From: Flavobacteriaceae bacterium PS02334
Lineage (GTDB): Bacteria; Bacteroidota; Bacteroidia; Flavobacteriales; Flavobacteriaceae
Length of the DNA: 64,000 nucleotides
Direction of reading: 5' to 3'
Assembly (NCBI GenBank): GCA_029959295.1
Contig: JASCOH010000006.1
Coordinates: forward strand, 248,001 to 312,000
The translations under genes and the position numbers were made by a program. Positions 6,312 to 26,558 of this stretch are shown here, one piece after another (position 1 is the first letter of the stretch; each line of letters starts with the position of its first letter). The notes beneath the pieces were generated by a model. The model did not search any database and was not told where the DNA came from. It saw only the letters and a program-made list of their open reading frames with translations.

Positions 6312-6530
6312 TTAATTTTCATAACCGCAAATTGTCCTGCCAATCTTCTTGGCTTTATTAAGACTCATTTTTTCAATCTGATGCTTGCATCTTTTTAATC
6401 CATGGCAATCTTTGTTTAAATGATATCTGCTTCCAGTATCACTTTTGCAGATATAAACGTCAGGTTGTTTTGAAGAACCCAAAGATAAAGTTGCCGTAAC
6501 AACATATATTAATAGTAATTTTTGGAACAT
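6312..6530 (-). CDS. Small secreted cysteine/histidine protein, unknown function
   Basis: 72 residues: a signal peptide (about 1-20) and a short mature part with Y-x-C-x-S near residue 26 and a YHLNKDCHGLKRCKHQ motif, ending RTICGYE. The spacing of four cysteines with nearby histidines suggests metal or heme binding or a disulfide-stabilised fold. I recall similar short proteins in many Bacteroidetes genomes with no assigned role. It is the last gene before the convergent MFS transporter and lies 25 bp after the neighbouring 65-residue gene, so it may be the tail of the TerD/tubulin operon. Confidence 0.6.
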   Translation of the reverse strand: MFQKLLLIYVVTATLSLGSSKQPDVYICKSDTGSRYHLNKDCHGLKRCKHQIEKMSLNKAKKIGRTICGYEN

Positions 6531-6555
6531 CTGTTTAAATTTTTAAGACTAAAAA

Positions 6556-6753
6556 CTACACTTTTCGGACAGCCGTTTTTAGTAGATTAATAATAAAGAG
6601 AATTAGAAAAACTAAAATAATCGGGCTAAAAACCTCAACCCAGCCTAAATTTCCAAAGCTGATTTTAATGATAAAAAGGACAATGCAAAATGCAACTGAC
6701 AGGGTAATAAGTAGAGTTTTAAAATCAGTTTTCTTTTTTCTTTTCTTCGCCAT
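6556..6753 (-). CDS. Small two-helix membrane protein
   Basis: 65 residues. A very basic start (MAKKRKKKTDFK) is followed by two hydrophobic helices at about 12-31 and 36-57 and a short basic tail. No family was recognised. It lies 16 bp downstream of the OmpA-like gene on the same strand and is probably co-transcribed with the TerD/tubulin operon, possibly as an inner-membrane component. Confidence 0.55.
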   Translation of the reverse strand: MAKKRKKKTDFKTLLITLSVAFCIVLFIIKISFGNLGWVEVFSPIILVFLILFIINLLKTAVRKV

Positions 6754-6769
6754 TTGGGTTTTGTGTTAG

Positions 6770-7423
6770 CTATAAATTAATTTCAACTCTTCTGTTTTTC
6801 TTCCTGCCTTCTTCAGTGTCATTTGTCGCGATAGGATTTTCGATGCCTCTTCCAATAGCATTAATTTTGTTCGCATCAATGCCTTTTTCAACTAGATGTT
6901 TTTTCAAAGTGTTGGCTCTATCCTGAGAAATTTTATTGTTTACAGAAAGTTCGCCTTCACTGCTGGCATAACCATTTAAAGTTATTGAGGAAGTTGGATT
7001 TGCTTCTAAATAATCTGAAATTTGCTTAATGACAACCTCATCAACTACAACTATTTCTGAAGAACCTTTCTCAAATGAAGCAGGAATTTTATTTTCCAAT
7101 TCAGATGGCTTTACTGTGTTTTCAACTTCCGAAATATTTTCAACTGAAGTTTTCTCATTTAAAGTATCCGCAGGAATTGCACTTTTTCCAACAACTTCTG
7201 TCCCTTTTTCAGGAGCTATTTTTAACATAGAATCGGTATCCTCCTTAGAACTTAAAAAGTAATAGCCCGCGCTTCCAATTAAAAGTAGAAGCAGAATGAC
7301 TAGAATTAATGACGGACTTTTCTTCTTCGGTTCTTCTTGCCAACTATTATTTTTTGACAAATCAAACTTTGATTCCGTTCCGGATTTTGCAGGTTCCTCG
7401 TTTTTATTTAAATTAAATGACAT
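6770..7423 (-). CDS. OmpA-family peptidoglycan-binding protein with TM anchor
   Basis: 217 residues. A short cytoplasmic amino end precedes one transmembrane helix (about 38-58, SLILVILLLLLIGSAGYYFL), a Ser/Glu/Thr-rich linker and an OmpA carboxy-terminal domain (about 115-217). That domain shows GYASSEGE, LSVNNKISQDRANTLKKHL, GRGIENPIATNDTEEGRKKN and RRVEINL, including the Asp and Arg that bind diaminopimelate in the family. It therefore links inner membrane to cell wall. The cytoplasmic amino end (SFNLNK, then KFDLSKNN) resembles the first strand of the TerD protein encoded next door (SFNLNKGERFSLSK). It lies 15 bp downstream of that terD gene in the same operon. Confidence 0.85.
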   Translation of the reverse strand: MSFNLNKNEEPAKSGTESKFDLSKNNSWQEEPKKKSPSLILVILLLLLIGSAGYYFLSSKEDTDSMLKIAPEKGTEVVGKSAIPADTLNEKTSVENISEVENTVKPSELENKIPASFEKGSSEIVVVDEVVIKQISDYLEANPTSSITLNGYASSEGELSVNNKISQDRANTLKKHLVEKGIDANKINAIGRGIENPIATNDTEEGRKKNRRVEINL

Positions 7424-7438
7424 AATTTTTGTTTTAGA

Positions 7439-8092
7439 TTAAGTATACATTTCTACTAAAGTCTGCAAGCTTCCGGTATGCGCTCTTCCCATGGCCTCAA
7501 ATTCCCAAGAATCACCAGCACGGTATAATCTTCCAAATTCCACGGCATCTTCATTGGTAAATTGATCTTTCAGGCTATATCTTAAGATTTCACTTCCAGT
7601 ATTTTCATCCACAATTCGAATGTAACAATCGTTGACTTGCCCAAAATTTAAATCCAAAGTTCTTCGGTCTTTCTTTGTGTCATTTGGAAATTTGCAAATC
7701 GTCGCACATATAATAATCTGCTCAATATTTGCACTTACTTTATTCAAATCAATGATCATATCTTCGTCGTCTTCGCCATCGCTTCGAGTGCCATCTGGGT
7801 CGTCAATCGCACCTTTTATAGCACCGTCAGCGGTCAAAGGCCTAAAAAGTCCCTTCTCATTTTGATCCTCAATACTATTGCCCATTTGAACTTGCCCATA
7901 AAAAACAAAATAACTGTCAGACGGAATTTTGAAATTGCTGTTAATCGCAAATGCCGAAACATCAAGGTCAAATTCGGGTCCGTTTGGCTGTTCATTCGGA
8001 TCCCAGCCCATTCCGATTTTCACGACTGTCAATCCCGGAGCTGCTTTTGAAAGAGAAAATCTTTCGCCTTTATTTAAGTTGAAACTTATCAT
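7439..8092 (-). CDS. TerD family protein, long form
   Basis: 217 residues, longer than the usual 190. TerD proteins are calcium-binding beta-sandwich domains of the tellurite/stress (Ter) systems. Seen here are the amino strand FNLNKGERFSLSKAAPGL, the GMGWDPN block, FDLDVSAFAIN, an acidic metal loop DGEDDEDMIIDLNKV and the closing REYR-like FGRLYRAGDSWEFEAMG. The extra length sits in the middle (about residues 85-108), before the acidic loop. It is the second of two adjacent terD paralogs, 15 bp apart, downstream of the Hsp70-like and tubulin-like genes. Confidence 0.92.
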   Translation of the reverse strand: MISFNLNKGERFSLSKAAPGLTVVKIGMGWDPNEQPNGPEFDLDVSAFAINSNFKIPSDSYFVFYGQVQMGNSIEDQNEKGLFRPLTADGAIKGAIDDPDGTRSDGEDDEDMIIDLNKVSANIEQIIICATICKFPNDTKKDRRTLDLNFGQVNDCYIRIVDENTGSEILRYSLKDQFTNEDAVEFGRLYRAGDSWEFEAMGRAHTGSLQTLVEMYT

Positions 8093-8107
8093 TTTTAAAA
8101 TTTTAGA

Positions 8108-8674
8108 TTATTGATATAATTCGATTAAAGTTCCCAATCCGCCAGCAAATGCTTGGCCTAAGCCTTCAACATGCCATTCGCCACCATTTCGAGAAAGTGA
8201 AGCAATAATTACCGAATCTTGATGGTCAAAAGCTTCCTCAAGCTTGTATTGGCAGAGAATAGTGTTGTCATTTGAATTTCGAATATTGATATACGAATTC
8301 ATAACATTTCCAAAATGATGGCCTCGCGATTCTGATTCGTGAATAGTTACAGCGAAGTATAAAAATTCTACTCTTGAATCCATTTTTGACAAATCAATAA
8401 GAATCGATTCATCATCGCCGTCACCCAATCCATCTCGATTATCGCCCAAATGTTTTACAGCGTCATCAGGACTTTTTAGGTTATTATAAAAGATAAAAAA
8501 CGCTTCTTCAGGAAGTTTTCCGTTTGCGCCAAGCATAAAAACTGAAACATCGCAGTCTACTTTTTGACCGCCAACAGATGCTTGATCCCAGCCAAGTCCG
8601 GCGATTATATTTTTAAGTCCAGAATTTTCTTTTGCCAGTGAAAGTGGCTTGTTTTTTTGTAATGAAATTGCCAT
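8108..8674 (-). CDS. TerD family protein
   Basis: 188 residues, the standard TerD length. Motifs are ISLQKNKPLSLAKENSGL at the amino end, GLGWDQASVGG, VDCDVSVFML, the canonical acidic calcium loop GDNRDGLGDGDDESILIDL, and VIIASLSRNGGEWHVEGLGQ near the end. It is closer to classical TerD/TerE than its neighbour. It lies 12 bp after the proline-rich 441-residue gene and 15 bp before the second terD. Ter proteins are membrane-associated stress factors whose mechanism is not fully resolved. Confidence 0.94.
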   Translation of the reverse strand: MAISLQKNKPLSLAKENSGLKNIIAGLGWDQASVGGQKVDCDVSVFMLGANGKLPEEAFFIFYNNLKSPDDAVKHLGDNRDGLGDGDDESILIDLSKMDSRVEFLYFAVTIHESESRGHHFGNVMNSYINIRNSNDNTILCQYKLEEAFDHQDSVIIASLSRNGGEWHVEGLGQAFAGGLGTLIELYQ

Positions 8675-8686
8675 ATTTTTTTAATT

Positions 8687-10012
8687 TTAATTGTTCTTTT
8701 TAGGAGGTAAAGGTGGAGGCAGAACCGGTTTTTTGATCGTGTTTTTCGGAATCTCCGGTAAGCCTGGTTTATTTTGATTTGTCAGATTTTCTTTTTTTGG
8801 AGGTAAGATAGGAGGTGTATTTACAACTGGCTTTTCAACTTTAGTAAACTCAGGAAGCAATGGTTTTTTAGCTGGAATTTCAGGATTCGCAATAACTTTC
8901 GGCACTTCCGGAATTGGATTTGTTTTCTTTTTTGCCAGATATCCAGATTGTGCAATTTTTGAAAAAAGAAGCTTCATGGTTTCCGTATTATGAAGCGTCT
9001 CGGGTCCAATCACATTTGGATATTTCTTTAATAATTTCTCAGAAAAATAAGAAGTATTGATTTCATCGCTTGCCAAAACAATTGTCGTTTTTTCAACCGA
9101 AATGCTTACAGATTTCAACAAATCATCGATCGCCGAATAAATCAAGCTGTCGTTAGAATAATAAATCAGGCGGTCATTTAAATCTCTTTCTTTTACGCTA
9201 AACCAATACACTTTTCCATCAGAAAGCTCGGCATTTCCTTTTATAATCGGAACTATGTTTTCTAATAAATCAGCACAAAAAGGAAGCAAAAAAGCCACTT
9301 CTTTTTCTTTTTCAAAAGAGAGATAAGAATTTTGCAAAGTGATATATTCCAGAATTATTTCAGCCAGCATTTTAACTCTTGGATCTGCGCCGTGGCCTTC
9401 CAATTTTGATGCCACTGTTTCTTTATGGTTAATATTTTTATATAATTCTAGATATAAATTATTATCAATTCCGTTTAAAAGAAGTATTGATTTGCTGGAA
9501 TTTATTATGCCGTGAGCGTTTAAAACTTCAAATAAACATTCGTTGTAATTGACTCTTTCTATATTATTATAACCAGCTTCCGCAAAAATATTTTCAATCA
9601 ATGATTTTTCCTTGTCTTCAATATCAGTTTCAAAAAGAAAACGCAACGGAAAATTCGGCCGGTAAGATTCAATCGAATTGCTGTTGTACAAAACCGTATT
9701 GATGAAATGTGAAAGATATTGTTCGACGCCAAAATAAAACAGCTGTTTGCAAGGCTTTTTATTGTTGTAAATTGTAAAGTGCGCCGACGGATCTTGTATG
9801 ATTTCAAAATAATTTCCGAAAGCATTTGGATCATTTGAAAAGAATCGGTCTCTTGCAGCATTTCCAAAAATAAAATCATTTCCATTGACATAAAAATACA
9901 AGGGCACTTCATTAGAATCCTTGATTTCCAATGGAGCATAAGGGCTTCCTTCTGATTGATACCAAAAGGAAACCTTACGTCTTGCTATTTTTACTACTAC
10001 GCAATAATTCAT
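8687..10012 (-). CDS. Putative actin-fold (Hsp70-like) protein with proline-rich tail
   Basis: 441 residues, no firm family. The first 370 residues have an alternating strand/helix pattern with an opening VVVKIARRKVSFWYQS strand-turn-strand, a middle SILLLNGIDNNLYLELY segment and a late TTIVLASDEINTSYFSEKLL segment. This layout could be a degenerate actin-like ATPase, but the phosphate-loop glycines are not convincing. Residues about 373-441 are low complexity, with repeated P-x-[IL]-P and LPPPLPPKK, a likely binding tail for partner proteins. It is separated by only 5 bp from the giant Hsp70-like gene, so the two probably act together. Confidence 0.6.
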   Translation of the reverse strand: MNYCVVVKIARRKVSFWYQSEGSPYAPLEIKDSNEVPLYFYVNGNDFIFGNAARDRFFSNDPNAFGNYFEIIQDPSAHFTIYNNKKPCKQLFYFGVEQYLSHFINTVLYNSNSIESYRPNFPLRFLFETDIEDKEKSLIENIFAEAGYNNIERVNYNECLFEVLNAHGIINSSKSILLLNGIDNNLYLELYKNINHKETVASKLEGHGADPRVKMLAEIILEYITLQNSYLSFEKEKEVAFLLPFCADLLENIVPIIKGNAELSDGKVYWFSVKERDLNDRLIYYSNDSLIYSAIDDLLKSVSISVEKTTIVLASDEINTSYFSEKLLKKYPNVIGPETLHNTETMKLLFSKIAQSGYLAKKKTNPIPEVPKVIANPEIPAKKPLLPEFTKVEKPVVNTPPILPPKKENLTNQNKPGLPEIPKNTIKKPVLPPPLPPKKNN

Positions 10013-10017
10013 TTTAT

Positions 10018-13000
10018 TTATTTTTTTATGCCTTTTAACAAGTGCTTTTCAAAGAATTTCATGCCTTCTAAAATGATTATCGGAGCCACATAATCGAAGC
10101 TTTTTTGCTCTTTTTTCTGTGCTTCAATATATTCAGGATCGCCTTTGATATAATTTTCAATATTCATGTCTTGAAAGCCTTCCATGAAATCTGCAGGAGA
10201 CATTTTGAGTCCGAACATCGAAGAAGAAACTTTGAAGAATAAATCGGCAAAATCCATAAATCTCGGGCATGGGTCTTTACCTTGGGGAACTAGGCAGATG
10301 AAGGAAGTTCCGATGTGTTCCATCATTTCTGGCGTCATAGAATTCGACGATTCAAGATATTTGAATTCACCGCTTGGCGTTACTACGCAGAAATTATCTT
10401 CCCCAAGAACTTCAATCGCATTTTTATTTCTAGGAACTAGCAATTTTGTCTGGCTTGTAGGAATGGCAAGGCCTTTTGAAACTTCATATTTCACGTCAGC
10501 ATTGTTTTCTGCTTTTTGGCTGTTGATGTCAATAATTTTCAAAGGATTGATTGAAATCGGCGTTATCGTAGTTCTTGCCACAGCTTCTCCGCCAATTCCT
10601 CTCACAAACATTTGCGTGTAATAATCTTCCGCCGCTTTTGGATTTACAGCATTAAACCAATCAAATATTCGAGCGCCTTTTCCTGCAAAAGCAATTTTAA
10701 TTTTTGGAGCTAAAGCTTTAACCGCAGGCGGCGCATCTTCAGATTTTAGAATTTCTGATCGGAGTTTTTGAGCCAATTGACCAGCATAAAACATGATCAA
10801 GCCAGTAACATAAAGATTGACGCTCATCATTTCCTTGCATTCGGCAGCTATTAATCGATAAAAATCATCAAAATCTGTGGCATCCAATCGGTCTACAACT
10901 TGCTCAAAGTAATAAGGAGCCGTGTTTTCATTGAATTTGTTATTTGGTGTATTCAGTCCTTCAATCTTGATCTTTTTTCTTTCGCACATTTTCAATAAAA
11001 CGGACTTAAAATTTGGAGAAAAACGAGTTGCTTCAGCCACCCGCTGTGCTGCAAACCGAATAGAATTCTGTTTGATCATCGCTTTTCCGCCATCCATTTG
11101 GCACAAAGCCGTAATGTCTGTCGTGCTGCCGCCAATGTCAAAACACAAAACCAATTCTCCCGGGCCAAGATTATAGCCACCGTTTGGCCTTACTAAATAA
11201 TTGGCAACGGCGCAGGCTTCTGTCAACGATTCGTCATTGCTTAATTCTTTGAAATCAAATCGCAATGGCGCTATTTCTGTAGCTATTTCTACAGCTTGTT
11301 TTTTTGCTTTGGAAACTGTTTCATCACCCCAGCCAGAACTTGCAGTAACTGTTTCTGCAGTATTCCAACTATTGCTACCCGAAGAACCCCAGCCTGTATT
11401 TTCTTCAACTGGAGGAACTGTATTTGTAGACCAAGAACTTTCAGAAGTATTTCCAATATCTGATAAATCTGACGGAGGATAAATTTTTAAGGAATTGCCC
11501 GTACTTACAATCGGACTGATTTCTTTCAAGGAGTCCCAAATGCCTTGGTATTCGGTCAATAATCCTTTTCCCATAGAAGAAGGATAGGACCATTTTAGCG
11601 ATTTTGGTTCGTGTTTATCCACAAAAAGCTGGGCATAAACATGCAAAAGCAGAGAACTCAAATAGGCTGTTTTATAACTTTTGTCGATGGCCTGCGTTGA
11701 CCATTTCATGTTGTAAACCAATTCGGCTTTTCCGACGCGATTGTAGCCTAAAACATAGCGGTCATTTTGCGCATTTTCAATAGGAAGGTTTTTTTCGAAA
11801 CAAGGAAATCCGCCTTTCACGGCTTGCGACGCCAACGATTCATGGCTTATCGTATCGCTTTTTACCAATCTTCTCGGGTCATGAATTGTCAGAATCGATT
11901 TTATGGCATTCGTAGTGATTTCATCATTTTGGAAAAAGAAAATTTCGTCTTCGACAGCCGGTCTTTCATCATTGTTTTTTGTATCGCTGGAAAGCAACGA
12001 AACCCTTCTGTTTTTTAAAACTAAATTATCGCAAACCTTAGAATCTCTTTCAGAATAATAAGCGATGGAAGAATTCGTGCTTCCAAAATCAACGCCCAAA
12101 TAAGCCGGAGCCAAATCAATTATCGGACTCTGAAGTTTGTTCTCTGGCAAATTCGGATTGTTTCCGGTATTGTCATATCGAATAATTCCAAAACCGCAAT
12201 CTACGCCTGCGTAGGAGAATTTCACGCCTTTGAAAGGCTGGTTGCTTTCATAGATCTCATATTTATAAGCATTGTCGGCTACAGCATTATTAGAAGCCAC
12301 ATGCAATTCGGCTTTTATATGTCTGTGTTTTTCTGAAACATCGACCGATTTTCCGTTTTTTGAAAGATAGAATGGTATGCCTTTTTCATCCATGACAATT
12401 CTAAAAAAATCATCGTTTGCATCACCTACAAATGGCGTAGCTTGAAATTTTGCATCATTGTGAGGAATTTCGGAATACAGAAAATAACGATTCCATTGTT
12501 TGGATATGAAATTCGGCCACAATAAAATATCCTTCCCTAGAATAGAATCTCTGGTAACATTGTAAACTACCTGTTTTGTGATTTCATTGCCCGTTTGGGT
12601 AAACAATCGCAAAGTCACCGTTAGTTTTTCGCCATCTTTATCATTTGGATCATAAATAGCAGAAATTCTAGATTTTACGGCAGACGAATCATCAAAACCA
12701 ACAAGCGCGTTGAGGTTTTTTCCGAAGACATTCAAAGCCAATGGCGTCAAAGGCAAAGTAAAATAAGCAAAACTGTTTGGCTGTCCTTTTGTGGAAGCTT
12801 CCAAAAGAAGAATCGGTTTTGATTTTAAGTAGTTTTTAGTTTCGGCGCCTTCTTTTCCGAAATCAATCTGCGCAATGTCAGAAGCATCCGGGAGCAATAA
12901 ATCTTTTGGGTCGAAAGCAATTCCGTCCGGACTTGCATCACTTGAAATCGTCCCTTCCGAACCATATAATTCTGTTGAATAATTGAAAAGCGTGCTGAAA

Positions 13001-13887
13001 GGAAATTTAAAAAAGTTTCCGATTTCTGGAGGAACTGCATTTTCAAGCTTTGGGAAATTCTTAGCTTCCTGATACTTTACCATGTCTTTCATCCAGTTTT
13101 GGATTGAACCATTAATATTGCTGTATTCTGGCCTTAAGATTTCTTCCAAACTGCTAAAATTATTCTGAAATTTGTTGATGTTGTTCAAAATGTATTTAGC
13201 ATATCCATATAAAGTCTGCAATTCTTCTGGAGTAAGATCTGACTGAAGCGGATCTATAAATTTGCCATTATTTACATTTACAAAAGGGAATTTATCCTTG
13301 ATTTTATAGGAAACCGAAGTAAATAAAAAAGAGTCTGGAGAAGTACCGCCGACCACATTACCCTTAAAAGAAATTACATCAATAAAAGGAATTTTATCTG
13401 CATTATTTGCCAAAGATTGGTCGCACCACAACGGCTGTCTTTCAAACAAAACATTTCCAAAAGCACCTGTCGGCTCATAGATATTTGAAGTGTCGAGTAA
13501 CTTTTTTCCATCAGAATAAGCCAGTTGCACGCGATCGATGTGCATGTCTTTGTAATTTAAGGCAATGCAACTGATCAAACCTTTCCATTCATTTAGCAAG
13601 GATTTATAGAAGGAAAGCAAGCCCGAAGTTTCGGCATCTTTATCGATAATATTATCAAGTGCATTTCTGAATAAATTTGCGCGTGCATAAACGGTCGGCA
13701 TTCCAGAAACGATTGATCCGATGTCAACAGAAGAATTTCCGTCTTTATCGACAGCAATTTCTGGAATAGTAATATTTTTAGTAAAAACTTCTAACTGCGG
13801 AATTTTATCCCAAGCATATTCCACGCCTTGCGGTTCTGTTTTAGGATGAACTTTTATTGCAAGCGCTTTTATTTTATTAGCTGCCAT
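10018..13887 (-). CDS. Giant Hsp70/actin-fold protein, possibly SrfB-like
   Basis: 1289 residues. The ATPase core is in the second half: phosphate-1 motif YLGVDFGSTNSSIAYYS at about 597-613, phosphate-2 motif LCFDIGGSTTDITALCQ at about 914-930 and an adenosine motif IAFAGKGARIFDWF at about 1065-1078. Between the two phosphate motifs is a Ser/Trp/Gly-rich insert (about 815-855) with SSGWGDE-type repeats. The first 590 residues match nothing I know. The domain order recalls the SrfB virulence-factor family, itself Hsp70-like, but this is from memory. Genes on both sides are within 7 bp, so it is translated with the tubulin-like protein and the 441-residue protein. A cytosolic nucleotide-driven switch or scaffold is inferred. 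Confidence 0.75.
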   Translation of the reverse strand: MAANKIKALAIKVHPKTEPQGVEYAWDKIPQLEVFTKNITIPEIAVDKDGNSSVDIGSIVSGMPTVYARANLFRNALDNIIDKDAETSGLLSFYKSLLNEWKGLISCIALNYKDMHIDRVQLAYSDGKKLLDTSNIYEPTGAFGNVLFERQPLWCDQSLANNADKIPFIDVISFKGNVVGGTSPDSFLFTSVSYKIKDKFPFVNVNNGKFIDPLQSDLTPEELQTLYGYAKYILNNINKFQNNFSSLEEILRPEYSNINGSIQNWMKDMVKYQEAKNFPKLENAVPPEIGNFFKFPFSTLFNYSTELYGSEGTISSDASPDGIAFDPKDLLLPDASDIAQIDFGKEGAETKNYLKSKPILLLEASTKGQPNSFAYFTLPLTPLALNVFGKNLNALVGFDDSSAVKSRISAIYDPNDKDGEKLTVTLRLFTQTGNEITKQVVYNVTRDSILGKDILLWPNFISKQWNRYFLYSEIPHNDAKFQATPFVGDANDDFFRIVMDEKGIPFYLSKNGKSVDVSEKHRHIKAELHVASNNAVADNAYKYEIYESNQPFKGVKFSYAGVDCGFGIIRYDNTGNNPNLPENKLQSPIIDLAPAYLGVDFGSTNSSIAYYSERDSKVCDNLVLKNRRVSLLSSDTKNNDERPAVEDEIFFFQNDEITTNAIKSILTIHDPRRLVKSDTISHESLASQAVKGGFPCFEKNLPIENAQNDRYVLGYNRVGKAELVYNMKWSTQAIDKSYKTAYLSSLLLHVYAQLFVDKHEPKSLKWSYPSSMGKGLLTEYQGIWDSLKEISPIVSTGNSLKIYPPSDLSDIGNTSESSWSTNTVPPVEENTGWGSSGSNSWNTAETVTASSGWGDETVSKAKKQAVEIATEIAPLRFDFKELSNDESLTEACAVANYLVRPNGGYNLGPGELVLCFDIGGSTTDITALCQMDGGKAMIKQNSIRFAAQRVAEATRFSPNFKSVLLKMCERKKIKIEGLNTPNNKFNENTAPYYFEQVVDRLDATDFDDFYRLIAAECKEMMSVNLYVTGLIMFYAGQLAQKLRSEILKSEDAPPAVKALAPKIKIAFAGKGARIFDWFNAVNPKAAEDYYTQMFVRGIGGEAVARTTITPISINPLKIIDINSQKAENNADVKYEVSKGLAIPTSQTKLLVPRNKNAIEVLGEDNFCVVTPSGEFKYLESSNSMTPEMMEHIGTSFICLVPQGKDPCPRFMDFADLFFKVSSSMFGLKMSPADFMEGFQDMNIENYIKGDPEYIEAQKKEQKSFDYVAPIIILEGMKFFEKHLLKGIKK

Positions 13888-13893
13888 AGTCGT

Positions 13894-15525
13894 TTAGTTT
13901 AGATTGAAATTTTGGGAAACCGTGATAGCATTATAAATATGTGCTAAGAATTTTTCCTTTGTAGTGTTGACTTTCTGCTCTTCCTTGCTGTCAGATTCAA
14001 TGAGCTTGTCGATGAAATTGTCATACCTGTTAGATAAAAATCCGCCTTTTGACCAATGGTGCTTGTCGTCTAAAAACAAGGCGCCGACATCCAGTTTCTT
14101 TAATTCTGAAGCCGTGTCTGGAAAAGCCTTGCTGTCAAACATAAATGTCCCTGGAGCAACCGTATTCCTGATTTGGTAAAGCCACCCAGAAATGAATCTT
14201 TCATTGCTAAATCCGTAAGCAAAAAGCTTGAAATAATCATTTATGTCGTGACATTCTTCATCTGTGATTGTGGCGTATTGCGTGAGTTTCTGCTTTTGGC
14301 ATCGGGTAATAAAACCTTTGATTCCAGCTTCGCCATTGATAGAAAGAGAAATGTGCGCCAATGAGAAAAAAGCACCGAGACGGTTTGCAAAAATTTCTCC
14401 AGCCTTATTGTTATTCCCGACAAAATCATTGAAAGAAAAACTGAACGAATTGTTGTTAAATTCTACGGCTTTGTATAAATATTCTGCCTTTGCGCCATCA
14501 AAACCATTGTCACGCGTGAAGAAATCATAAGCCGCGCAAGCACACAAAAGTTCTGTAATATGGCACGGATTTTTTTGGTTGGCACCACCGGTTATCGTTT
14601 CATGGCCAGAATTTTCGGCATCGATATTCTTGCTGTCGATCGGCCATCCGATGTGATATAAAATCTTATAGCTTTTTTGGACTGTTGGATCGCTTTGGTA
14701 AAATTGCAAAGCCGCTTGGCTATTTAAAGGAAAAAAGGAAGGATCGGCAATGACGCTATTTTCTTTTCCAGATTTTTGCTTTTCGTCAGGTTTTTTGAAC
14801 GTAAAATATTCAGTCAATAGGGTTGAGCCGAATTTCGCTTTTGTAAAATCAATAGTAGAAGCTCCGGCAGATCGAATCTTTACAAAATCTTGCAAAGCCT
14901 TTGGGATAACAGGAATCGAAGAAGCTCCAGTTCCTCCAAAAATAGATCCGAAGATAAAAACTCGGGCATTTGCACCGGCTTTTTCCAGCTTGGAAACAAA
15001 TTGGTCAAGTTCTCTTTCTTGTGGTTGTACGTCTGCGCCTTTGACAATATTTCGTGCTGCTTCCACAATTCCGTGATACATTAGCATCGAGCCTAAATGC
15101 GTTTGAGCCCTGTAACCATGTGCCAAATTGAATTCCTGAACCGAATTATTATCTAAAAACAAATCAGAAATCAGCCTGTTGTTTTTTTGCTCTTCGGTAG
15201 AACCGGAAGCAATCTTGCTTATGTTTTTATAATTTTCTCTTCCTGTAGCCGAATAATTGGTATAATAGCGATGCAGGTTTAATTTTGCAGAGAAAAAAGT
15301 ATTGGCATTTGGCGTGCCGCCTTCCGTTGATCCAGACGTTTTTATGCGGCTGTACAATCTGATGAGTTCTTCAACGCGCCCTTTATTGCCGTTGGTTTGG
15401 TCGGTGTCAAGAGTCAGCAGTTCGATTTCTTGATTGTCAAACATTCCGATGGCGCTCAAATGTGTGAACGATTCGAGGCAACGCATTCCGGTACCGCCGA
15501 TGGCGATTATGAATAATTTGTCCAT
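13894..15525 (-). CDS. Tubulin/FtsZ-like GTPase (Tubulin_2/FtsZl type)
   Basis: 543 residues. The amino end LFIIAIGGTGMRCLESFTHL is the glycine-rich first loop of tubulin-like proteins. ELLTLDTDQTNGNKGR gives the next strand with an acidic tip, and FIFGSIFGGTGASSIPVIPK at about 191-210 is the tubulin signature (GGTG[ST]G variant, here GGTGAS). Downstream are long helices and a carboxy-terminal domain of unknown relation. This is not cell-division FtsZ, which lacks such length and order. Bacterial relatives (FtsZl families) were proposed by Makarova and Koonin to act in membrane remodelling together with vWA and OmpA-family proteins; the OmpA partner, and possibly a vWA partner, are encoded in this operon. 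Confidence 0.82.
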   Translation of the reverse strand: MDKLFIIAIGGTGMRCLESFTHLSAIGMFDNQEIELLTLDTDQTNGNKGRVEELIRLYSRIKTSGSTEGGTPNANTFFSAKLNLHRYYTNYSATGRENYKNISKIASGSTEEQKNNRLISDLFLDNNSVQEFNLAHGYRAQTHLGSMLMYHGIVEAARNIVKGADVQPQERELDQFVSKLEKAGANARVFIFGSIFGGTGASSIPVIPKALQDFVKIRSAGASTIDFTKAKFGSTLLTEYFTFKKPDEKQKSGKENSVIADPSFFPLNSQAALQFYQSDPTVQKSYKILYHIGWPIDSKNIDAENSGHETITGGANQKNPCHITELLCACAAYDFFTRDNGFDGAKAEYLYKAVEFNNNSFSFSFNDFVGNNNKAGEIFANRLGAFFSLAHISLSINGEAGIKGFITRCQKQKLTQYATITDEECHDINDYFKLFAYGFSNERFISGWLYQIRNTVAPGTFMFDSKAFPDTASELKKLDVGALFLDDKHHWSKGGFLSNRYDNFIDKLIESDSKEEQKVNTTKEKFLAHIYNAITVSQNFNLN

Positions 15526-15542
15526 TTTTTTTGTTTTGTAGA

Positions 15543-15872
15543 TTAAAACCAGTTGCCGATTTTACCATTCTTGAACATTTTGCTGAGTGCAAATCCGATA
15601 AAGATGTAGGCTAGAAATCCGATTACAATTCCAATATTTAAGGCAGACAAATAATTGTTGACAACCATTACGTTTGCATCTGGCTTGAACACAAAATAGC
15701 CAAGCAGAAAAGTGACAATCGGATTTAAAATTGCTAAAATCCAAAACCAAGTTTTTCTTTTTCCAGGATCTTGCGGATTGCTTCCGCCTTGATATTTGAT
15801 TGCGTTTGCAATAAATGTGGCGAATAATAAGAATATAAATGCGATGCTGATTGAAATGATATATGCTTCCAT
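15543..15872 (-). CDS. Small multi-pass membrane protein
   Basis: 109 residues with three hydrophobic helices, at about 3-24, 42-62 and 75-97, and a short polar loop (KYQGGSNPQDPGKRK) between the first two. No family recognised. It sits 17 bp upstream of the tubulin-like gene and 19 bp downstream of the lipoprotein gene, so it is a plausible membrane anchor or receptor for the cytosolic partners. Confidence 0.6.
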   Translation of the reverse strand: MEAYIISISIAFIFLLFATFIANAIKYQGGSNPQDPGKRKTWFWILAILNPIVTFLLGYFVFKPDANVMVVNNYLSALNIGIVIGFLAYIFIGFALSKMFKNGKIGNWF

Positions 15873-15891
15873 TTTGTTGTTTTATTAGGTT

Positions 15892-17421
15892 TTATTGTAG
15901 CGTTTTGATGTAATAAGAATAAATTGTTTTGCCATTTGGCTTTACTTTAGAATCGGTTAGGGTATTTTTTATAGATTCATAAAGTGCTAAATTTTGAGAA
16001 CCTTTTTTAGTTGTAGAAGCCCATTTAAAAAACGCTAACTTAGAATTTGAGACATTTGGTGCTGCGTTTTTGATAATGATATCAACTCTTGTCAATCCTT
16101 GTGGATTCAACAGGTTTTTAACACTGAATTTCGGATCGAATGCAACGCCTAATTCTGTTTTTTTAGCGTCCGTTTTCTTTGTGTTCGCAAATAATTCTTT
16201 GTTCAAAGTAAAAAAGTCAGGAATTGCAACAACTGGTTTATTTTTATAAATCCATTCTTCTTTTAATTTGCCATTCGATTCATAACATTGCAAAGCGATA
16301 TTGTCGGTTTCCTTGTCATCAAATTTGTCTTCGCCGTTGTTTCCTTTTGATAATTTTGGCTTGTGATTTGTTGCTTCTTTGCATTTTGAAAAGTGCTCAA
16401 AATCTTCAGTGACATCATTTACTTTAATTTCAATTTCTGCATTTGAATAAGCATCTTCATTACTTAAATCAATAAAAAGCTTACGAAAAAACTCTTTAAA
16501 AAGGCCTTGTTCTTGATACGATTCTTTTAATTCTCCAATCGTATTCCAATCTAAATTGAAAGGATAAAATTCAAAATATTTGTTCGCTTCCAAACCGTTT
16601 TTATAAGCTTCCTTGTTGAGGTCAAGCACATTTTTTGTCTTTTCGTCTTTGCCATCCGCATCATAAAAAATTCCTCCTTTTTGATCAGAAGCATAACCTT
16701 GCGAAAGCTGAAAAGCTGGATTTGCTAAATCATAAAAAGGCAAATTCCCGAGTGTGCTTTCTACTTTTTTAGTCATGCCATTGCTGGAATTTCCACAATT
16801 AAAAACCGTGAAATAAAGGTGTTTTTCTATTCCGTTTTCTTTGTAATTTGAAATGTAAAAGCGAATCGAATTTCCTTTTTCCAACCATTTTATAAAATAT
16901 TCTTTGAGATAAGGAACATCTGTAATTTCTGCTCTTCCGGAAGAAGCGGGATAATATTCTTCAAAATCAGTGACAAGAAGGGCGTCGTTATTTTTGCTGA
17001 CTATTTGCGAAACGGCTTCTTTTATAGGAGCGTAAATTCCGCGATACTGATTTTCATCAACAACCATTCTGCCAACAACGTCGGAGTTTGAATTTTCTAA
17101 AGGCTGAATGGCATCGTTATTCAGCATAAAAACATCCAAATCACCAGAAAGATTTCCGTAAACCGCTTTGATCAAATTGCTATTGGCAGGATTGTTTTTA
17201 AAAGCTTGGAAAATACCGCTGGAAAAATCGATATACATCGAAGCGTTTCCGGTTTTGGTAGTTGCAGGATTTGGAAATGTTTGGTCTTGATAAGCTTCCA
17301 CTCTCTGAGAAAGCTGTGCATCATAAGCATCAAATTCCATAAACGGATCGCTCGAATCTTTCCCGCATCTGACAGACAAAAGTGCCGTGAGCAACCCTAA
17401 TGTTAAGTATAAATGTTTCAT
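15892..17421 (-). CDS. Putative lipoprotein with vWA-like core
   Basis: 509 residues. The signal peptide ends at Cys19 (LLSVRC-GKDSSD), a likely lipidation site although Arg at -1 is unusual. Residues 59-72 (NASMYIDFSSGIFQ) look like the D-x-S-x-S strand of a von Willebrand A domain, but the last serine is Gly. ALLVTDFEEYYP at about 147-158 resembles the second metal-site strand (T-D-x-E). Further on are IRFYISNYKE and FTVFNCGN strands. A vWA-like fold is therefore an inference, not a firm call. The carboxy half (about 280-509) is unknown. It lies 26 bp after the YidD-like gene in the operon. Confidence 0.55.
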   Translation of the reverse strand: MKHLYLTLGLLTALLSVRCGKDSSDPFMEFDAYDAQLSQRVEAYQDQTFPNPATTKTGNASMYIDFSSGIFQAFKNNPANSNLIKAVYGNLSGDLDVFMLNNDAIQPLENSNSDVVGRMVVDENQYRGIYAPIKEAVSQIVSKNNDALLVTDFEEYYPASSGRAEITDVPYLKEYFIKWLEKGNSIRFYISNYKENGIEKHLYFTVFNCGNSSNGMTKKVESTLGNLPFYDLANPAFQLSQGYASDQKGGIFYDADGKDEKTKNVLDLNKEAYKNGLEANKYFEFYPFNLDWNTIGELKESYQEQGLFKEFFRKLFIDLSNEDAYSNAEIEIKVNDVTEDFEHFSKCKEATNHKPKLSKGNNGEDKFDDKETDNIALQCYESNGKLKEEWIYKNKPVVAIPDFFTLNKELFANTKKTDAKKTELGVAFDPKFSVKNLLNPQGLTRVDIIIKNAAPNVSNSKLAFFKWASTTKKGSQNLALYESIKNTLTDSKVKPNGKTIYSYYIKTLQ

Positions 17422-17447
17422 TTTTTTCTGTTTTAAATTATTTTCTT

Positions 17448-17729
17448 TTATTGAAAAAGGCGTTCGGAAAGCTCGTCACTATCAACAATTGCATGAGAAT
17501 TTAAGATAGCCTGCATTTTTCCGTTATCAGGATTGGTGAAAATCATGACGTTGCCGCGACAATTTTTATATCTGAAAAGCAATGCTTTTAATCCTTTGAA
17601 AAGGCCGTCTTGGGTGGTGATTTGAAAAACATGTTTTGAACAAGATTGCTTAAAAATGCATTTCCGTCGCTTTTCTTCTGGAAAGATTTTCCAATAGCAC
17701 TTGATAATTAAGAGCAACAAATGTTTCAT
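17448..17729 (-). CDS. Diverged YidD-like (membrane insertion efficiency factor) protein
   Basis: 93 residues. True YidD has a short amphipathic amino end, then C-x-F-x-P-[ST]-C-S, then G-x-x-KG-x-x-L-x-x-x-R-x-x-[RK]-C. Here I see KCIFKQSCSKHVF, GLFKGLKALLFRYKNCRGN, so all three cysteines and the KG-L-R framework are kept, while the usual proline after the aromatic is lost. The amino end is a hydrophobic helix (HLLLLIIKCYW). A housekeeping yidD normally lies near rpmH/rnpA, so this copy is a specialised paralog. Its ATG overlaps the stop of the preceding gene by 4 bp (translational coupling). Confidence 0.65.
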   Translation of the reverse strand: MKHLLLLIIKCYWKIFPEEKRRKCIFKQSCSKHVFQITTQDGLFKGLKALLFRYKNCRGNVMIFTNPDNGKMQAILNSHAIVDSDELSERLFQ

Positions 17730-17956
17730 CTTTTGAAGACTACCATCTGGCTATAGATTGTAAAACCAGGCTTAGCTCCTAAGCCAAAACATCCCATATC
17801 AGGTTTTACAATTGTGGTTACGCTTTCTAATCTTACATATTCCCAGCCTTTTAGAGAATAATCTTTTATCAAACTTTGCAATTGATCAGCCACATTGTTT
17901 GCGGTTCCTTTTAGTGGATCGATTGATGCTGTAAATGGTACTACTTTATAATCCAT
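17726..17956 (-). CDS. DUF4177-like small protein, first gene of the TerD/tubulin operon
   Basis: 76 residues: MDYKVVPFTASI, an amphipathic helix with NVADQLQSLIKDYSLKGWEYV and paired strands RLESVTTIV and GFTIYSQMVVFKR. The order strand, helix with a GWE turn, strands, is that of DUF4177-type proteins, which are small, soluble and of unknown function. A CFGLG loop at about 56-60 may be a metal or thiol site. It opens the operon, with its start about 26 bp after a -7 box and overlapping the YidD-like gene by 4 bp. Confidence 0.6.
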   Translation of the reverse strand: MDYKVVPFTASIDPLKGTANNVADQLQSLIKDYSLKGWEYVRLESVTTIVKPDMGCFGLGAKPGFTIYSQMVVFKR

Positions 17957-17981
17957 AATTTTTATTTTTTAAATATTGGTC

Positions 17982-18027
17982 AAACTTAAATCAGATGTGA
18001 ATCAGTTCTTTACGGGTTTCCGTAAAG
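17982..18027 (-). promoter_or_regulatory. Promoter of the TerD/tubulin operon with 8-bp inverted-repeat operator
   Basis: On the minus strand, TAAGTTTG (17982-17989) fits the Bacteroidetes -7 box TAnnTTTG. About 19-20 nt upstream is a perfect inverted repeat: CTTTACGG (18008-18015), 4-nt spacer GTTT, CCGTAAAG (18020-18027). The repeat occupies the -33 region and the DNA just upstream. The same arrangement precedes the next gene (19157-19202). Confidence 0.75.
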
Positions 18028-18066
18028 CGAAGAAATAATTGAAAATTAGTGCTGTAATTGAAGTAT

Positions 18067-19134
18067 TTAGTTGTCGTAACTTTCCACAGCGCTTATCAAA
18101 ACATCCGAAAAATTGAAAATATCGTCAAGCGAGCTGATCTCGTTTTTGATTTCCTTTTTATTTTCGTCAATTGTTGCGATATATTTTTTAGTACCGTTGA
18201 AGTATAATCTGCAGATGGTTTTGCGATTATTGTCATCCAAAAGAATGGCGAAATAGGAGAGGGCGTCGCGATAAGCAATTCGGGAAACCGGAATCTTCTG
18301 TCTCAAAATTGTCTTTACGATCATGAAACCTTCCAGTTCTTCCTCGGTAGTTATGATTCCGGAAGCGTCAGATTTTTCAGTTTCAGCAATGGCGGCATCT
18401 TGCTCTTTGACCACAGCGTCTTCTTTTGTCAAGGCTGATTTCAATCTTTCCGTAATCAGATCGCTGAGGTATTGCTGCATCGATTTCTTCGTAAGATTAG
18501 TAAACTGCTCTAAGATTCTAGCATTTACAACACTCGGATAGACTTGCTTTGCAAAATGCCTGACAAATTCAGGACTCGGATTGGTAAATTCGGAATCAAT
18601 AAGTTTCTTTAATTCAAAAGTATACTTGAGGTCGCTGGCAGTGTTTACGATATTATCAAAATCATAATAAGCCTTGTGGAATTTCTTTAATTCCTCAATT
18701 TGGTTGTCTTTTATGTCGGTAATATCGAAGGCGAAAAACGGCTTATCGTCCATTTTATTGGTTTCCACCAAATCAGTATAAAATCTGTACTCGATGCCGT
18801 TGGTAAGAATAGAAAACTTGGCTTTCGTGGTATGAAAATAGCGAAATAATTGTGAAGCATTGTTTACATTCAAAGGCAAAGCATGATGCTTGCACTCAAT
18901 TAAAATTATCGGATCGCCATTTTGCATGATCGCATAATCAATTTTTTCGCCCTGCTTGATACCAATGTCAGCTACTAATTCAGGCGTCACTTCAAACGGA
19001 TTAAAAACGTCATAGCCTAATTCTTTAATGAACGGCATGATAAAAGCATTTTTAGTCGCTTCTTCAGTATTGACTTGGTCTTTCAGTTTTGTAACGCGAT
19101 CGCCAAGCATTTTGATTTGATCTTTAAAGTCCAT
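18067..19134 (-). CDS. HsdR_N-type PD-(D/E)xK nuclease-like protein
   Basis: 355 residues. The amino half carries the type I restriction enzyme R-subunit N-terminal fold: EEATKNAFIMPFIKELGYDV, then KIDYAIMQNG (the catalytic Asp) and PIILIECKHHALPLN (the E-x-K pair), with QLFRYFHTTKAKFSILTNG downstream. There is no helicase, specificity or methylase gene beside it, so it is not a type I system. The carboxy half (about 225-355) has an acidic linker and then EELEGFMIVKTILRQ and RLYFNGTKKYIATI, another conserved part of these stand-alone proteins. Its promoter shares an operator with the TerD/tubulin operon directly downstream. Self-contained nuclease or nucleic-acid-sensing roles are possible. 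Confidence 0.8.
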   Translation of the reverse strand: MDFKDQIKMLGDRVTKLKDQVNTEEATKNAFIMPFIKELGYDVFNPFEVTPELVADIGIKQGEKIDYAIMQNGDPIILIECKHHALPLNVNNASQLFRYFHTTKAKFSILTNGIEYRFYTDLVETNKMDDKPFFAFDITDIKDNQIEELKKFHKAYYDFDNIVNTASDLKYTFELKKLIDSEFTNPSPEFVRHFAKQVYPSVVNARILEQFTNLTKKSMQQYLSDLITERLKSALTKEDAVVKEQDAAIAETEKSDASGIITTEEELEGFMIVKTILRQKIPVSRIAYRDALSYFAILLDDNNRKTICRLYFNGTKKYIATIDENKKEIKNEISSLDDIFNFSDVLISAVESYDN

Positions 19135-19156
19135 GGGGGATTGAATTAAGTTTCAA

Positions 19157-19202
19157 CAAACCTATGGCGATAAAAAATACATTTTTTACGGGTTTCCGTA
19201 AA
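19157..19202 (-). promoter_or_regulatory. Promoter of the HsdR_N gene with the same inverted-repeat operator
   Basis: On the minus strand, TAGGTTTG (19157-19164) is a perfect TAnnTTTG box. Exactly 20 nt upstream lies TTTACGG-AAAC-CCGTAAA as read on the minus strand (19185-19202), the same repeat as at 18008-18027 with 7-bp perfect arms. Confidence 0.75.
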
Positions 19203-19218
19203 GGGGAATAATTTGCAT

Positions 19219-19252
19219 AAAAAAACTGCAAGGTTTTAAGCTTGCAGTTTGG
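19219..19252 (-). terminator. Rho-independent terminator
   Basis: AAACTGCAAG (19223-19232) and CTTGCAGTTT (19241-19250) form a 10-bp stem. Read on the minus strand the stem is followed by a T run, so it ends the transcript of the frameshifted lipoprotein gene or small ORF upstream. Confidence 0.8.
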
Positions 19253-19349: not shown

Positions 19350-20137
19350 TTACAGATATTCAATTACAGTTTTTGAAATTGGGTCAGTACTTCCTTTTAG
19401 TCTTTTGCTTATTTGAATAGGGAAGTCTTTATTGTTGTAAATTATGTCATACTCATATTCTTTTGAAGGTATTGTAGCTTCTAAACTATCAAATGATTCT
19501 TGAGAAATGAAATTGTTTAAGTTAAGCGGTAAAAATTCCTCTATATTAAAAATTAATTTAATGTAAGTAGGCATGTCCCGCATGGGATTATTTTTTGAAT
19601 CGAATAAAAAGGTAGATTTAGAAACTGTAATTCTTGTAGGTGATGTTGCATACTTAATCTTTTGTACTGCGTTTCCATTTAAAAAAGTATAAACATTCTT
19701 ATTTATTTGTGTCCAATTGTTACCATCTTTTATAGAATAGGTATTAGACGTTAATATATCATTGTTATATGCAAAATCGAACCTTTGTCCATTGTTACTA
19801 CCAATTACGCTTATAAGATTATTGCCTTCATAAACCATTGTGTCATATCCTAAAAATACATTATTATTAATAGAATTACTTCTTACAATTTTATCGCCTT
19901 CATAAACAAAATCAACTTTATTGGTCATTTGATTATTACCAGCACTTATCAATTTATTATTTCGGTAGATAAATCGGTTTATCGTAACTCCTTGATTTGT
20001 ATATTGAGTAGTTTTACTGACCAAAACTTTTGTAGTAGTGGATTATTTGAAGAATCGTCATTAATTGGTGTATCATTATCACTATTGCACGACAATAAAA
20101 ATAAAATTAGGACTGGCAATATTAATTTTTTGAACAT
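19350..20137 (-). pseudogene. YD-like repeat lipoprotein, frameshifted paralog
   Basis: From the ATG at 20135-20137 the frame reads a lipoprotein signal (MFKKLILPVLILFLLSCNSD, lipobox Cys) and then shifts out of register at about 20036-20050. The adjacent frame continues TTTKVLVSKTTQYTNQ and runs 224 residues to 19350. That body aligns along its whole length with the intact neighbour at 20193-20975: FVYEGDKIVRSN, YEGNNLISVIGSNNGQ, DSKNNPMRDMPTYIKL, STDPISKTVIEYL. The pair is therefore a tandem duplication with one damaged copy. The tyrosine/asparagine repeats resemble YD/RHS-type beta strands. Confidence 0.75.
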
Positions 20138-20192
20138 TTGTTTTATGTTTGTTATGACTCTATAATAGAATGATTATTGGCTCTAATGAATT

Positions 20193-20975
20193 TTATTGAT
20201 ATTCAATCACGGTTTTTGAAATTGGATCAGTACTTCCTGTTGCTTTTCTAATAATTTGAGTAGGGAAATCACTGCTATTGTAAATAATATCATAGCTATA
20301 TTCTTCAGAAGGCGTAGTTGCTTCTAAGCTGTTAAACGATTTTTGAGAAATTTCGTTATTTAAATTAAGCGGAGAAAATCCTTCAAAACTTAACAATAAT
20401 CTTATCACGGGATTCATATCACGCATCGGATTGTTTTTAGAATCAAACGTATATGTTGATTTAGAAACTAAATTTATTCCAGTGTTTGTCATATGGTTAA
20501 TAATTTGTGTCGTATTTCCATTGACAAAAGTGTAGGTTTTCTTATCCATTTGTGTCCAAGCACCATCATAAAGACTAGAATATACCTCAGTATTCAAAGT
20601 GTTATTGCTATAAGTATATTCAGTCTTATTGCTGTTATTGCTTTGGATTATACTTTTAAGGTTATTTCCTTCGTAGGTTAAAGTGTTAAATCCAACAATT
20701 GTATTATTGTTAATCTGATTCGCTTTTACAATTTTGTCACCTTCATAAATAAATTCAATTTTGTTGTTCAGGTCGCCACTAGTGATGCTGGCAAGTTTTT
20801 CACTGGCATAATTAAAATTAGTAACAGAGGTGCTTTCTGTATTTGAGTAATAGACAGTCTCCGTAATTTTGCTGATCAAAACAGACTCATATGTTTCTGG
20901 ATTCGTTGTTGAATCATCACTGCTGCAGGCAAATAAGATTGGAGCGAAAAGAAATAAAGCAATTTTTTTTAACAT
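20193..20975 (-). CDS. YD-like repeat lipoprotein
   Basis: 260 residues with a lipoprotein signal (MLKKIALFLFAPILFACSSD; Cys at 17). The mature part has repeated strand motifs of the form [FY]-x-Y-E-G-[DN]-x-[IL]-x-S: FIYEGDKIVKANQI, TLTYEGNNLKSIIQ, EYTYSNNTLNTEVYS, then STYTFDSKNNPMRDMNP and PISKTVIEYQ at the end. These proteins are common surface lipoproteins of unknown function in flavobacteria. It is the intact member of the pair, 55 bp upstream of the frameshifted copy. Confidence 0.75.
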   Translation of the reverse strand: MLKKIALFLFAPILFACSSDDSTTNPETYESVLISKITETVYYSNTESTSVTNFNYASEKLASITSGDLNNKIEFIYEGDKIVKANQINNNTIVGFNTLTYEGNNLKSIIQSNNSNKTEYTYSNNTLNTEVYSSLYDGAWTQMDKKTYTFVNGNTTQIINHMTNTGINLVSKSTYTFDSKNNPMRDMNPVIRLLLSFEGFSPLNLNNEISQKSFNSLEATTPSEEYSYDIIYNSSDFPTQIIRKATGSTDPISKTVIEYQ

Positions 20976-23255: not shown

Positions 23256-23936
23256 TTATAATATAATTATTGGTTGCAAGTCAAGCCAAAAATAAATCTT
23301 CAAAACAGAATTTAGAACTGCCAAACTCTTGCTGAAGCAAATACTTCTTCGGTTTAGTCTTTTCAAATGAGTTCGCAATGTCAAGTTATTCCTTTCGATA
23401 TGATTCGTTCCGAAACGTTTTACAGAATGTATTTTCTCATCAATCAGATATCGATAGTTTTTCAGCCTGTCGGTAAATATCTTTTTTGCTTCTGATAATT
23501 TTAAAGTGTCCAGAACCCCGCTCAGCGTTTTATTGGTTCTTTTTCCAACATTAAAACTCACCACAGTTTTAGAATTCTTTTCCAGTGCATAAACAAGCCA
23601 GATATAATTTTTCTTGTGTCGGATATAAGTACACAGTTCATCTACTTCATAGGTTTTGCCTTTGCTGATAATTGGCTTTCTGATATTTCTGGCAATTGAA
23701 ACAATTCTTTTTAATAATGTCGTGGTTGATATTTTCAGTATTCTTGCCGTACTTCTTATTCCTAAACCTTCTTTGGTTAATTGAATTATATTTTGATTGA
23801 TATCTAATTTGTAAGCTTGATTTGTATAATTTTCTATAAAACGGTGACAGCACATTTTACAATAATACTGCTGTTTATTGTTTTTTGTTCTCCCATTTTT
23901 AATAACCTTTTTCTCTTTACATTTTGGACAATTCAT
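23256..23936 (-). CDS. IS1-family transposase
   Basis: 226 residues from the ATG at 23934-23936; an in-frame extension to 23978 only reads through the internal end repeat. The amino end is an InsA-type zinc ribbon (MNCPKCKEKKVIKNGRTK, YYCKMCCHRF) and HTH (GLGIRSTARILKISTTTLLK). The catalytic part shows TYEVDELCTYI (first Asp), KIFTDRLKNY (second Asp) and HIERNNLTLRTHLKRLNRRS (Glu). Unlike classical IS1, it is one continuous frame needing no programmed frameshift, as in many Bacteroidetes members. All key residues are present, so it may be active. Confidence 0.9.
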   Translation of the reverse strand: MNCPKCKEKKVIKNGRTKNNKQQYYCKMCCHRFIENYTNQAYKLDINQNIIQLTKEGLGIRSTARILKISTTTLLKRIVSIARNIRKPIISKGKTYEVDELCTYIRHKKNYIWLVYALEKNSKTVVSFNVGKRTNKTLSGVLDTLKLSEAKKIFTDRLKNYRYLIDEKIHSVKRFGTNHIERNNLTLRTHLKRLNRRSICFSKSLAVLNSVLKIYFWLDLQPIIIL

Positions 23937-24003
23937 ATCATCACTAACTCTGGAACACCATGTCGGATTTTTACTCATTTTAGCTCATTTAAGGCAATGT
24001 TAA

Positions 24004-25945: not shown

Positions 25946-25984
25946 GCCCGTTGCCCTGTCGACGCCATAGGTCAGCCTGTTGTT
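25689..25984 (-). repeat. Direct repeat of RHS core DNA, orphan copy
   Basis: About 250 bp up to 25984 are nearly identical to DNA ending at 27629, with only a handful of differences. Weaker similarity extends down to 25689. The match stops abruptly at CCTGTTGTT, after which the orphan side becomes AT-rich. Confidence 0.9.
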
Positions 25985-26556: not shown

Positions 26557-26558
26557 AA

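Follow-up and report, generated by a model that had tools for sequence, protein, structure and literature searches.

The window analysed here, a stretch of 64,000 nucleotides from contig JASCOH010000006.1 of Flavobacteriaceae bacterium PS02334, contains a gene run that encodes a tubulin-superfamily protein and two Hsp70-fold proteins together with a lipoprotein, two TerD proteins and a peptidoglycan-binding OmpA-domain protein. We give about even weight to the reading that these products form an accessory, inducible, nucleoside triphosphate-driven trans-envelope complex for stress or anti-phage responses, in which TerD would dock on the tail of the OmpA protein. The run comprises 12 open reading frames, all on the minus strand, from 17956 to 6312 of the window. 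In transcription order, they encode a DUF4177-like protein, a YidD paralogue, the lipoprotein, a membrane protein, the tubulin-like protein, a 1289-residue and a 441-residue protein, TerD1, TerD2, the OmpA protein and two small proteins. According to the coordinates, the intergenic gaps are 5-26 bp and the one overlap is 4 bp (17726-17729); an earlier note, made from the letters of this DNA, had described about twelve same-strand genes with gaps of 4-94 bp or overlaps, of which the gene run stands and the 94-bp gap does not. Eight genes, from the lipoprotein to OmpA, are treated as the core:

15892..17421, minus strand: core 1, lipoprotein of 509 residues with Cys19, a predicted vWA-like fold and the string DFSxG...TD[FY]EE
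15543..15872, minus strand: core 2, small membrane protein of 109 residues with 3 hydrophobic stretches (hydropathy), conserved in position
13894..15525, minus strand: core 3, tubulin-superfamily protein of 543 residues with GGTGAS
10018..13887, minus strand: core 4, putative ATPase of 1289 residues with Hsp70/actin fold and three nucleotide motifs
8687..10012, minus strand: core 5, pseudo-Hsp70 of 441 residues, predicted nucleotide-binding domain fold without ATP motifs, Pro-rich tail
8108..8674, minus strand: TerD protein 1 (PF02342, 1.4e-61)
7439..8092, minus strand: TerD protein 2 with the N-terminus MISFNLNKGERFSLSK (PF02342, 1.3e-49)
6770..7423, minus strand: OmpA-domain protein with two FxLxK motifs in its tail, one transmembrane (TM) stretch and a peptidoglycan-binding domain (PF00691, 1.6e-16)

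Loci of the window's kind are called type A. A scan of species genomes with type A tubulin patterns yields 32 loci, whose titles all point to Bacteroidota; as the scan requires one of two peptide patterns, this number is a lower bound. When L016 is added, and the window and L095 are left aside, all eight core genes are present in the same order and on one strand in 26 of 33 loci, which rejects a chance cluster. Of the remaining seven loci, five (L044, L061, L064, L067 and L069) are cut off by a contig boundary inside the core or shortly after it. At L062, manual inspection recovered a divergent OmpA protein (PF00691, 7.1e-12), and L059 is the only truly different one. The relatives belong to Pedobacter, Chitinophaga and Flavobacterium and to metagenome-assembled genomes of Saprospiraceae, Prolixibacteraceae and Bacteroidales. 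Thus, the linkage on which the earlier note had let its proposal depend is strongly kept across families of Bacteroidota. In the host's genus, the set is found in 2 of 249 genomes, including the host; the second carrier (G570, locus L095) contains the full set, and no flanking DNA aligns to the first 34 kb of the window. This low frequency and the unrelated flanks indicate that the set is accessory. In a sample of 198 genomes of the phylum, the 1289-residue protein was likewise found in two, again including the host. G539, considered as a syntenic empty site, shares a neighbouring gene of the major facilitator superfamily and no wider synteny, so it does not qualify as a clean one. Several of the type A alignments described below are subsets of these loci, mostly without near-identical Pedobacter rows.

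The tubulin-like protein of the window alone matches PF00091 (4.2e-4) and PF13809 (Tubulin_2; 6.4e-4), both below the curated cut-off. In an alignment of this protein with seven relatives, PF00091 is recognised in 8/8 and PF13809 in 7/8 proteins. The relatives at L078 (3.2e-9) and L099 (2.3e-10) match PF13809 above cut-off, and the G-loops are invariant across eight sequences. The best match of the profile in the PDB reaches an E-value of 0.1 only (CetZ-type entry 3zid). Taken together, the family matches back the superfamily assignment that had been proposed from the tubulin signature. In the tubulin tree, type A is split from types B and C (see below) with 100/100 support and the window is left unplaced; tree topology was therefore rejected as an argument for horizontal transfer, which rests on patchiness instead.

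The 1289-residue protein by itself has no Pfam match. A profile of eight proteins that includes it matches Hsp70 nucleotide-binding domains in the PDB (7.1e-6), and all 21 aligned type A rows retain the phosphate-1, phosphate-2 and adenosine motifs, in line with the earlier proposal of an actin-fold ATPase. Sequence evidence therefore favours both folds, tubulin and Hsp70, that were assumed for the two key proteins. The 441-residue protein, which had been overlooked, is by its AlphaFold model a second, degenerate Hsp70: the predicted structure has the Hsp70 nucleotide-binding domain fold, and ATP motifs are present in 0/20 aligned rows. A sequence search with this protein against the PDB gives no significant match, and direct profile similarity to the 1289-residue protein, sought with hhalign, was rejected, the common fold being visible in the AlphaFold model only. 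At L059 (15544-20449), a pseudo-Hsp70 of the 441-residue type is fused to a complete Hsp70, with no TerD or OmpA found downstream; the next protein at this locus contains repeated GKIxGN-like segments in its N-terminal tail.

The lipoprotein was first described as possibly vWA-like. Its lipoprotein nature is confirmed, while the vWA character is weakly suggested by a search with the predicted structure, which returns weak matches, mostly to vWA folds. Pfam vWA models match neither the window protein nor 11 of its relatives, and a sequence search against the PDB gives no significant match. Strings resembling a metal ion-dependent adhesion site can be seen by eye in relatives at L099 (DGSGSM) and L080 (DRSLSM).

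Both TerD proteins match PF02342 far above cut-off, and their acidic metal loops can be read in the sequence, as the earlier note had stated. The membrane anchoring of the OmpA domain is equally borne out: hydropathy reveals a single TM-like stretch at residues 34-52. The N-terminal tail would be cytosolic. This tail starts with MSFNLNKNE...SKFDLSKNN, to be compared with the TerD2 start MISFNLNKGERFSLSK. Across the OmpA tails of 27 rows (the OmpA homologues found plus the window, with tail ends set by a hydrophobic-stretch rule), the pattern [FI][ND]L[SNT]K has 47 matches versus 0.036 expected in shuffles, a ratio that is not a probability because the rows are related (16/27 are from Pedobacter). 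It is present in 26/27 tails, with L063 as the exception, and in at least two copies in 20. As background, a set of 446 further proteins from the same loci, with TerD-like and OmpA-like ones removed by pattern, contains 10 matches in a total of 168,057 residues. Two loci were added later: the L062 tail contains four copies of the motif beside a TerD that starts with MSINLNK, and the L095 tail contains two. The diverged L079 has no strict match, and its tail sequence VTLKRK agrees with the start (ITLKRK) of a neighbouring 192-residue protein, which appears TerD-like by eye and is not recognised by Pfam. These findings suggest that the OmpA tail imitates the first strands of TerD, and it may either dock by strand exchange or compete for a TerD partner. 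The earlier idea that TerD ties the cytosolic components to an OmpA anchor has thereby gained support at the sequence level, as the tail appears to copy the TerD N-terminus. In the separate Ter locus of the same genome (L023), one vWA protein contains IDLTK near residue 210, which is perhaps the same TerD-docking motif.

The core is also found beyond type A. A profile of all types matches in 14/395 genomes of the phylum, with one weak match among these. L017-L022, L070, L071, L072, L074, L076, L077 and L078 share the gene order lipoprotein, membrane protein, tubulin, giant Hsp70-like protein. In types B and C, no TerD was found in the stretches examined. MotA-like and MotB-like genes occur at L019-L022, L070, L072, L074, L075 and L076, and none was found in the stretches examined at L017, L018, L071, L077 and L078. 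Against Zorya models, the two L019 proteins score unequally, with 3.6e-14 for the MotB-like one and ZorB and only 3.3e-4 for the MotA-like one and ZorA. The L073 stretch stops before the giant gene. L080 encodes the tubulin, weakly matching lipoprotein and Hsp70-like proteins and an OmpA-domain protein. L075 (9249-10487) has a type C-like tubulin gene split by an internal TAA, with no giant Hsp70-like gene found beside it. An unannotated 229-residue protein at L019 (6257-6946) has no Pfam match at 0.001 and recurs beside loci of types B and C, with relatives at L018, L021 and L022. In a plasmid scan, 6 of 72,556 records match, all at less than 60% identity, and the two examined are cyanobacterial (L098, L099). 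At L098, the lipoprotein gene is followed directly by a small gene, the tubulin gene and an Hsp70-like gene, and at L099 the lipoprotein-like gene lies on the other strand; neither has a match to the MotA or MotB profiles. The distant core of both plasmids is annotated mostly as hypothetical proteins.

We tentatively propose, with less than even confidence, that these loci represent a new class of trans-envelope machines. Their engine would be a cytosolic tubulin/Hsp70 pair, governed by a vWA lipoprotein in the periplasm together with a small membrane protein. The output modules would be exchangeable: in one version, TerD coats a peptidoglycan anchor that mimics it, with TerC as an addition, and in the other, the output is a channel of the MotAB/Zorya kind. 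Such machines would act in immunity or envelope stress and would occur in two phyla or more, also on cyanobacterial plasmids, and the type A, B and C loci would provide a natural module-swap series.

For the window, the proposed sequence of events starts in the periplasm, where the vWA-like lipoprotein would sense or bind a ligand, and the membrane protein with its three hydrophobic stretches would relay this signal inwards. In the cytosol, the tubulin-like protein and the ATP-competent Hsp70-like protein, regulated by the pseudo-Hsp70, may undergo nucleotide-dependent assembly and disassembly. The TerD proteins would build a layer that depends on metal and binds the cytosolic OmpA tail via the TerD-like FNLxK strands, and this docking would fasten the assembly across the inner membrane to the peptidoglycan. 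At loci that encode it, TerC could serve as the metal partner in the membrane. Most likely, the complex protects against attack on the envelope, such as phage entry or toxic agents, and has no housekeeping role. This reading is favoured by the collinear core, the TerD-like OmpA tail, TerC next to OmpA in ten loci, the patchy occurrence, the two-component and HSDR_N genes nearby and the MotA/MotB-like genes of the sister loci. If this proposal is true, an envelope sensor would control a bacterial tubulin homologue and an Hsp70 homologue that cooperate, and the route of TerD to the membrane may be a peptide copy of its own first strands. For TerD proteins, the long-standing links to stress and phage inhibition lack a mechanism, and the FNLxK tail is short, separable by mutation and amenable to peptide binding.

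Four further genes of the run and one gene upstream of it are accessory or possible partners:

17726..17956, minus strand: DUF4177-like protein of 76 residues, first gene, accessory (PF13783, 0.022, under cut-off)
17448..17729, minus strand: YidD paralogue, accessory (TIGR00278, 3e-15, and PF01809, both above cut-off)
6556..6753, minus strand: membrane protein of 65 residues, accessory, with two hydrophobic stretches (hydropathy)
6312..6530, minus strand: Cys/His-rich protein of 72 residues with a hydrophobic start, accessory
18067..19134, minus strand: protein with HSDR_N, a restriction-type nuclease domain, possible partner, 110 bp upstream (PF04313, 1.1e-17)

Homologues of both the DUF4177-like protein and the YidD paralogue, the latter correctly named in the earlier note, are present at L041, L053 and L068 and at the type B loci L017 and L018. 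The 65-residue protein has homologues at several Pedobacter loci and at L049, the 72-residue protein at several type A loci and at L017, L018 and L019. The single clear promoter that had been claimed for the operon is not supported: the Bacteroidota -33/-7 consensus has 6 matches across the window, which is not above chance, and 0 of them precede the operon. A search of 17900-19250 for sigma-70 promoters gives two minus-strand candidates directly upstream of 17956 among 6 matches in total versus 4.9 expected. A response regulator and a TPR histidine kinase are encoded within about 7 kb of the type A loci L040, L041, L046, L049 and L053 and also near L017, L018, L021 and L022 of types B and C. 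Together with the HSDR_N and ZorAB-like associations, they would point as much to a stress or phage response as to membrane remodelling.

Elsewhere in the window, 19350-20975 encodes two tandem similar proteins, of which the copy at 19350-20024 has no lipoprotein start and may be truncated. An IS1-family transposase gene (23256-23978) lies between an acyltransferase gene and RHS genes. The region 24860-30185 encodes an RHS/YD-repeat protein (DUF6443) whose end matches Ntox24 weakly; as in polymorphic toxin loci, part of the RHS core sequence recurs in a separate 361-residue cassette.

Three other explanations have been weighed. A dedicated anti-phage (conflict) system, with the tubulin/Hsp70 core as sensor or threshold device and either the HSDR_N nuclease or membrane damage by OmpA/MotAB as effector, is rather unlikely, although it would explain the patchy presence and the ZorB-like anchors of the sister loci, and conflict systems with tubulin or HSP70 homologues have been published (PMC7159879). 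Genes for HSDR_N proteins flank eight type A loci on the 5' side, the one in the window among them, and one lies close to the type B locus L017; however, HSDR_N was not found in the examined flanks of most type A loci, by which it was rejected as a core component, and no toxin-like effector is present within the core. Furthermore, PADLOC assigns neither the tubulin nor the Hsp70 proteins to a defence model, and viral contigs, searched with two peptide patterns, returned 24 pattern matches and 0 relatives.

It is improbable that the locus is a metal/tellurite stress (Ter) operon, in which TerD and TerC are the active components and tubulin/Hsp70 serves as the scaffold on which metal is loaded at the envelope. 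In favour of this idea, there are two TerD proteins, and Bacillus TerC proteins metalate exported proteins near SecYEG, as reported in PMC12096827. TerC, not found in the window, is encoded 3' of OmpA in ten loci at a distance of 11-381 bp (L055 has a fragment only) and matches PF03741 at about 1e-48 in the four loci tested, which adds a possible membrane partner to the trans-envelope anchor of the earlier note. A looser clustering counted 12 TerC loci; its members L053, L054 and L058 are only weakly similar (E-values 4e-6 to 4e-5) and differently placed, directly upstream of the lipoprotein gene at L053 (7014-8030) and L054 (7081-8079), with E-values of 3e-5, and downstream in L058, so the count was taken as ten. 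L062 has a weak TerB match under cut-off. Yet the core of lipoprotein, TM protein, tubulin and Hsp70 also occurs at L059 and in types B and C, where TerD was not found in the examined stretches, which makes TerD a module and not the heart of the system. In addition, a classical Ter locus lies elsewhere in the genome. It is highly improbable that the set is a housekeeping device of the cytoskeleton or of division, as the pairing of tubulin and Hsp70/actin folds could suggest by analogy with the FtsZ/FtsA logic: it was not found in 247/249 genomes of the genus, and its flanks in G570 are unrelated.

The proposed stress or anti-phage complex shares features with several known systems. Zorya likewise has an inner-membrane protein with a peptidoglycan-binding OmpA domain, and the sister loci carry MotA/MotB-like genes. 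In contrast to Zorya, the OmpA protein of the window matches ZorB models over the OmpA domain only, its TM stretch lacks an acidic residue, and a MotA-like profile of three sequences finds no ZorA counterpart in the window.

Ter systems, as summarised in PMC7824862, comprise TerC, TerD and TerY components, for which a sub-membrane structure and the exclusion of phages and xenobiotics have been considered. TerD in the window fits these ideas, and TerC adjoins the set in ten relatives and was not found in the window. The TerY-type vWA, PP2C-like and kinase-like partners that can be seen by eye in the other Ter locus of this genome are replaced by tubulin/Hsp70. The classical locus of the same genome (L023, 3196-13760, on contig C33) encodes four TerD proteins and, by eye, TerC-like, kinase-like and PP2C-like proteins and two TerY-type vWA proteins.

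Tubulin or HSP70 homologues also occur in GTPase-centric conflict systems (Kaur et al. 2020, PMC7159879), which resemble the window's set in their tubulin and HSP70 components, their accessory distribution and perhaps, given the weak signal in the lipoprotein, their vWA component. TerD, OmpA and the pseudo-Hsp70 appear as new partners in the window, the main text of that paper mentioning TerD once, as a nucleotide-binding domain. None of the 12 operon proteins contains both the Walker A and [NT]KxD patterns expected of the TRAFAC double GTPase of DO-GTPase/GAP1 systems.

FtsZl1 operons encode a divergent FtsZ-tubulin protein (Tubulin_2) together with vWA, OmpA and membrane proteins and often, though not universally, a P-loop GTPase, and membrane remodelling has been proposed as their function (Makarova and Koonin 2010, PMC2875224). 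The tubulin protein of the window carries the tubulin-superfamily GTP loop, as in these operons. It differs from their type protein Huta_2051 in length (543 versus 1051 residues), and the Hsp70 pair and TerD appear as additions. No P-loop GTPase is present in the window's operon, where a pattern search gave a Walker A-like string in the OmpA linker only. The open-licence PMC literature, supplements aside, contains no description that we found of tubulin, Hsp70, TerD and OmpA as one operon. The set is conserved and accessory and, as a combination, apparently undescribed, and its nearest counterpart is the FtsZl1/vWA/OmpA class, joined here to a Ter module.

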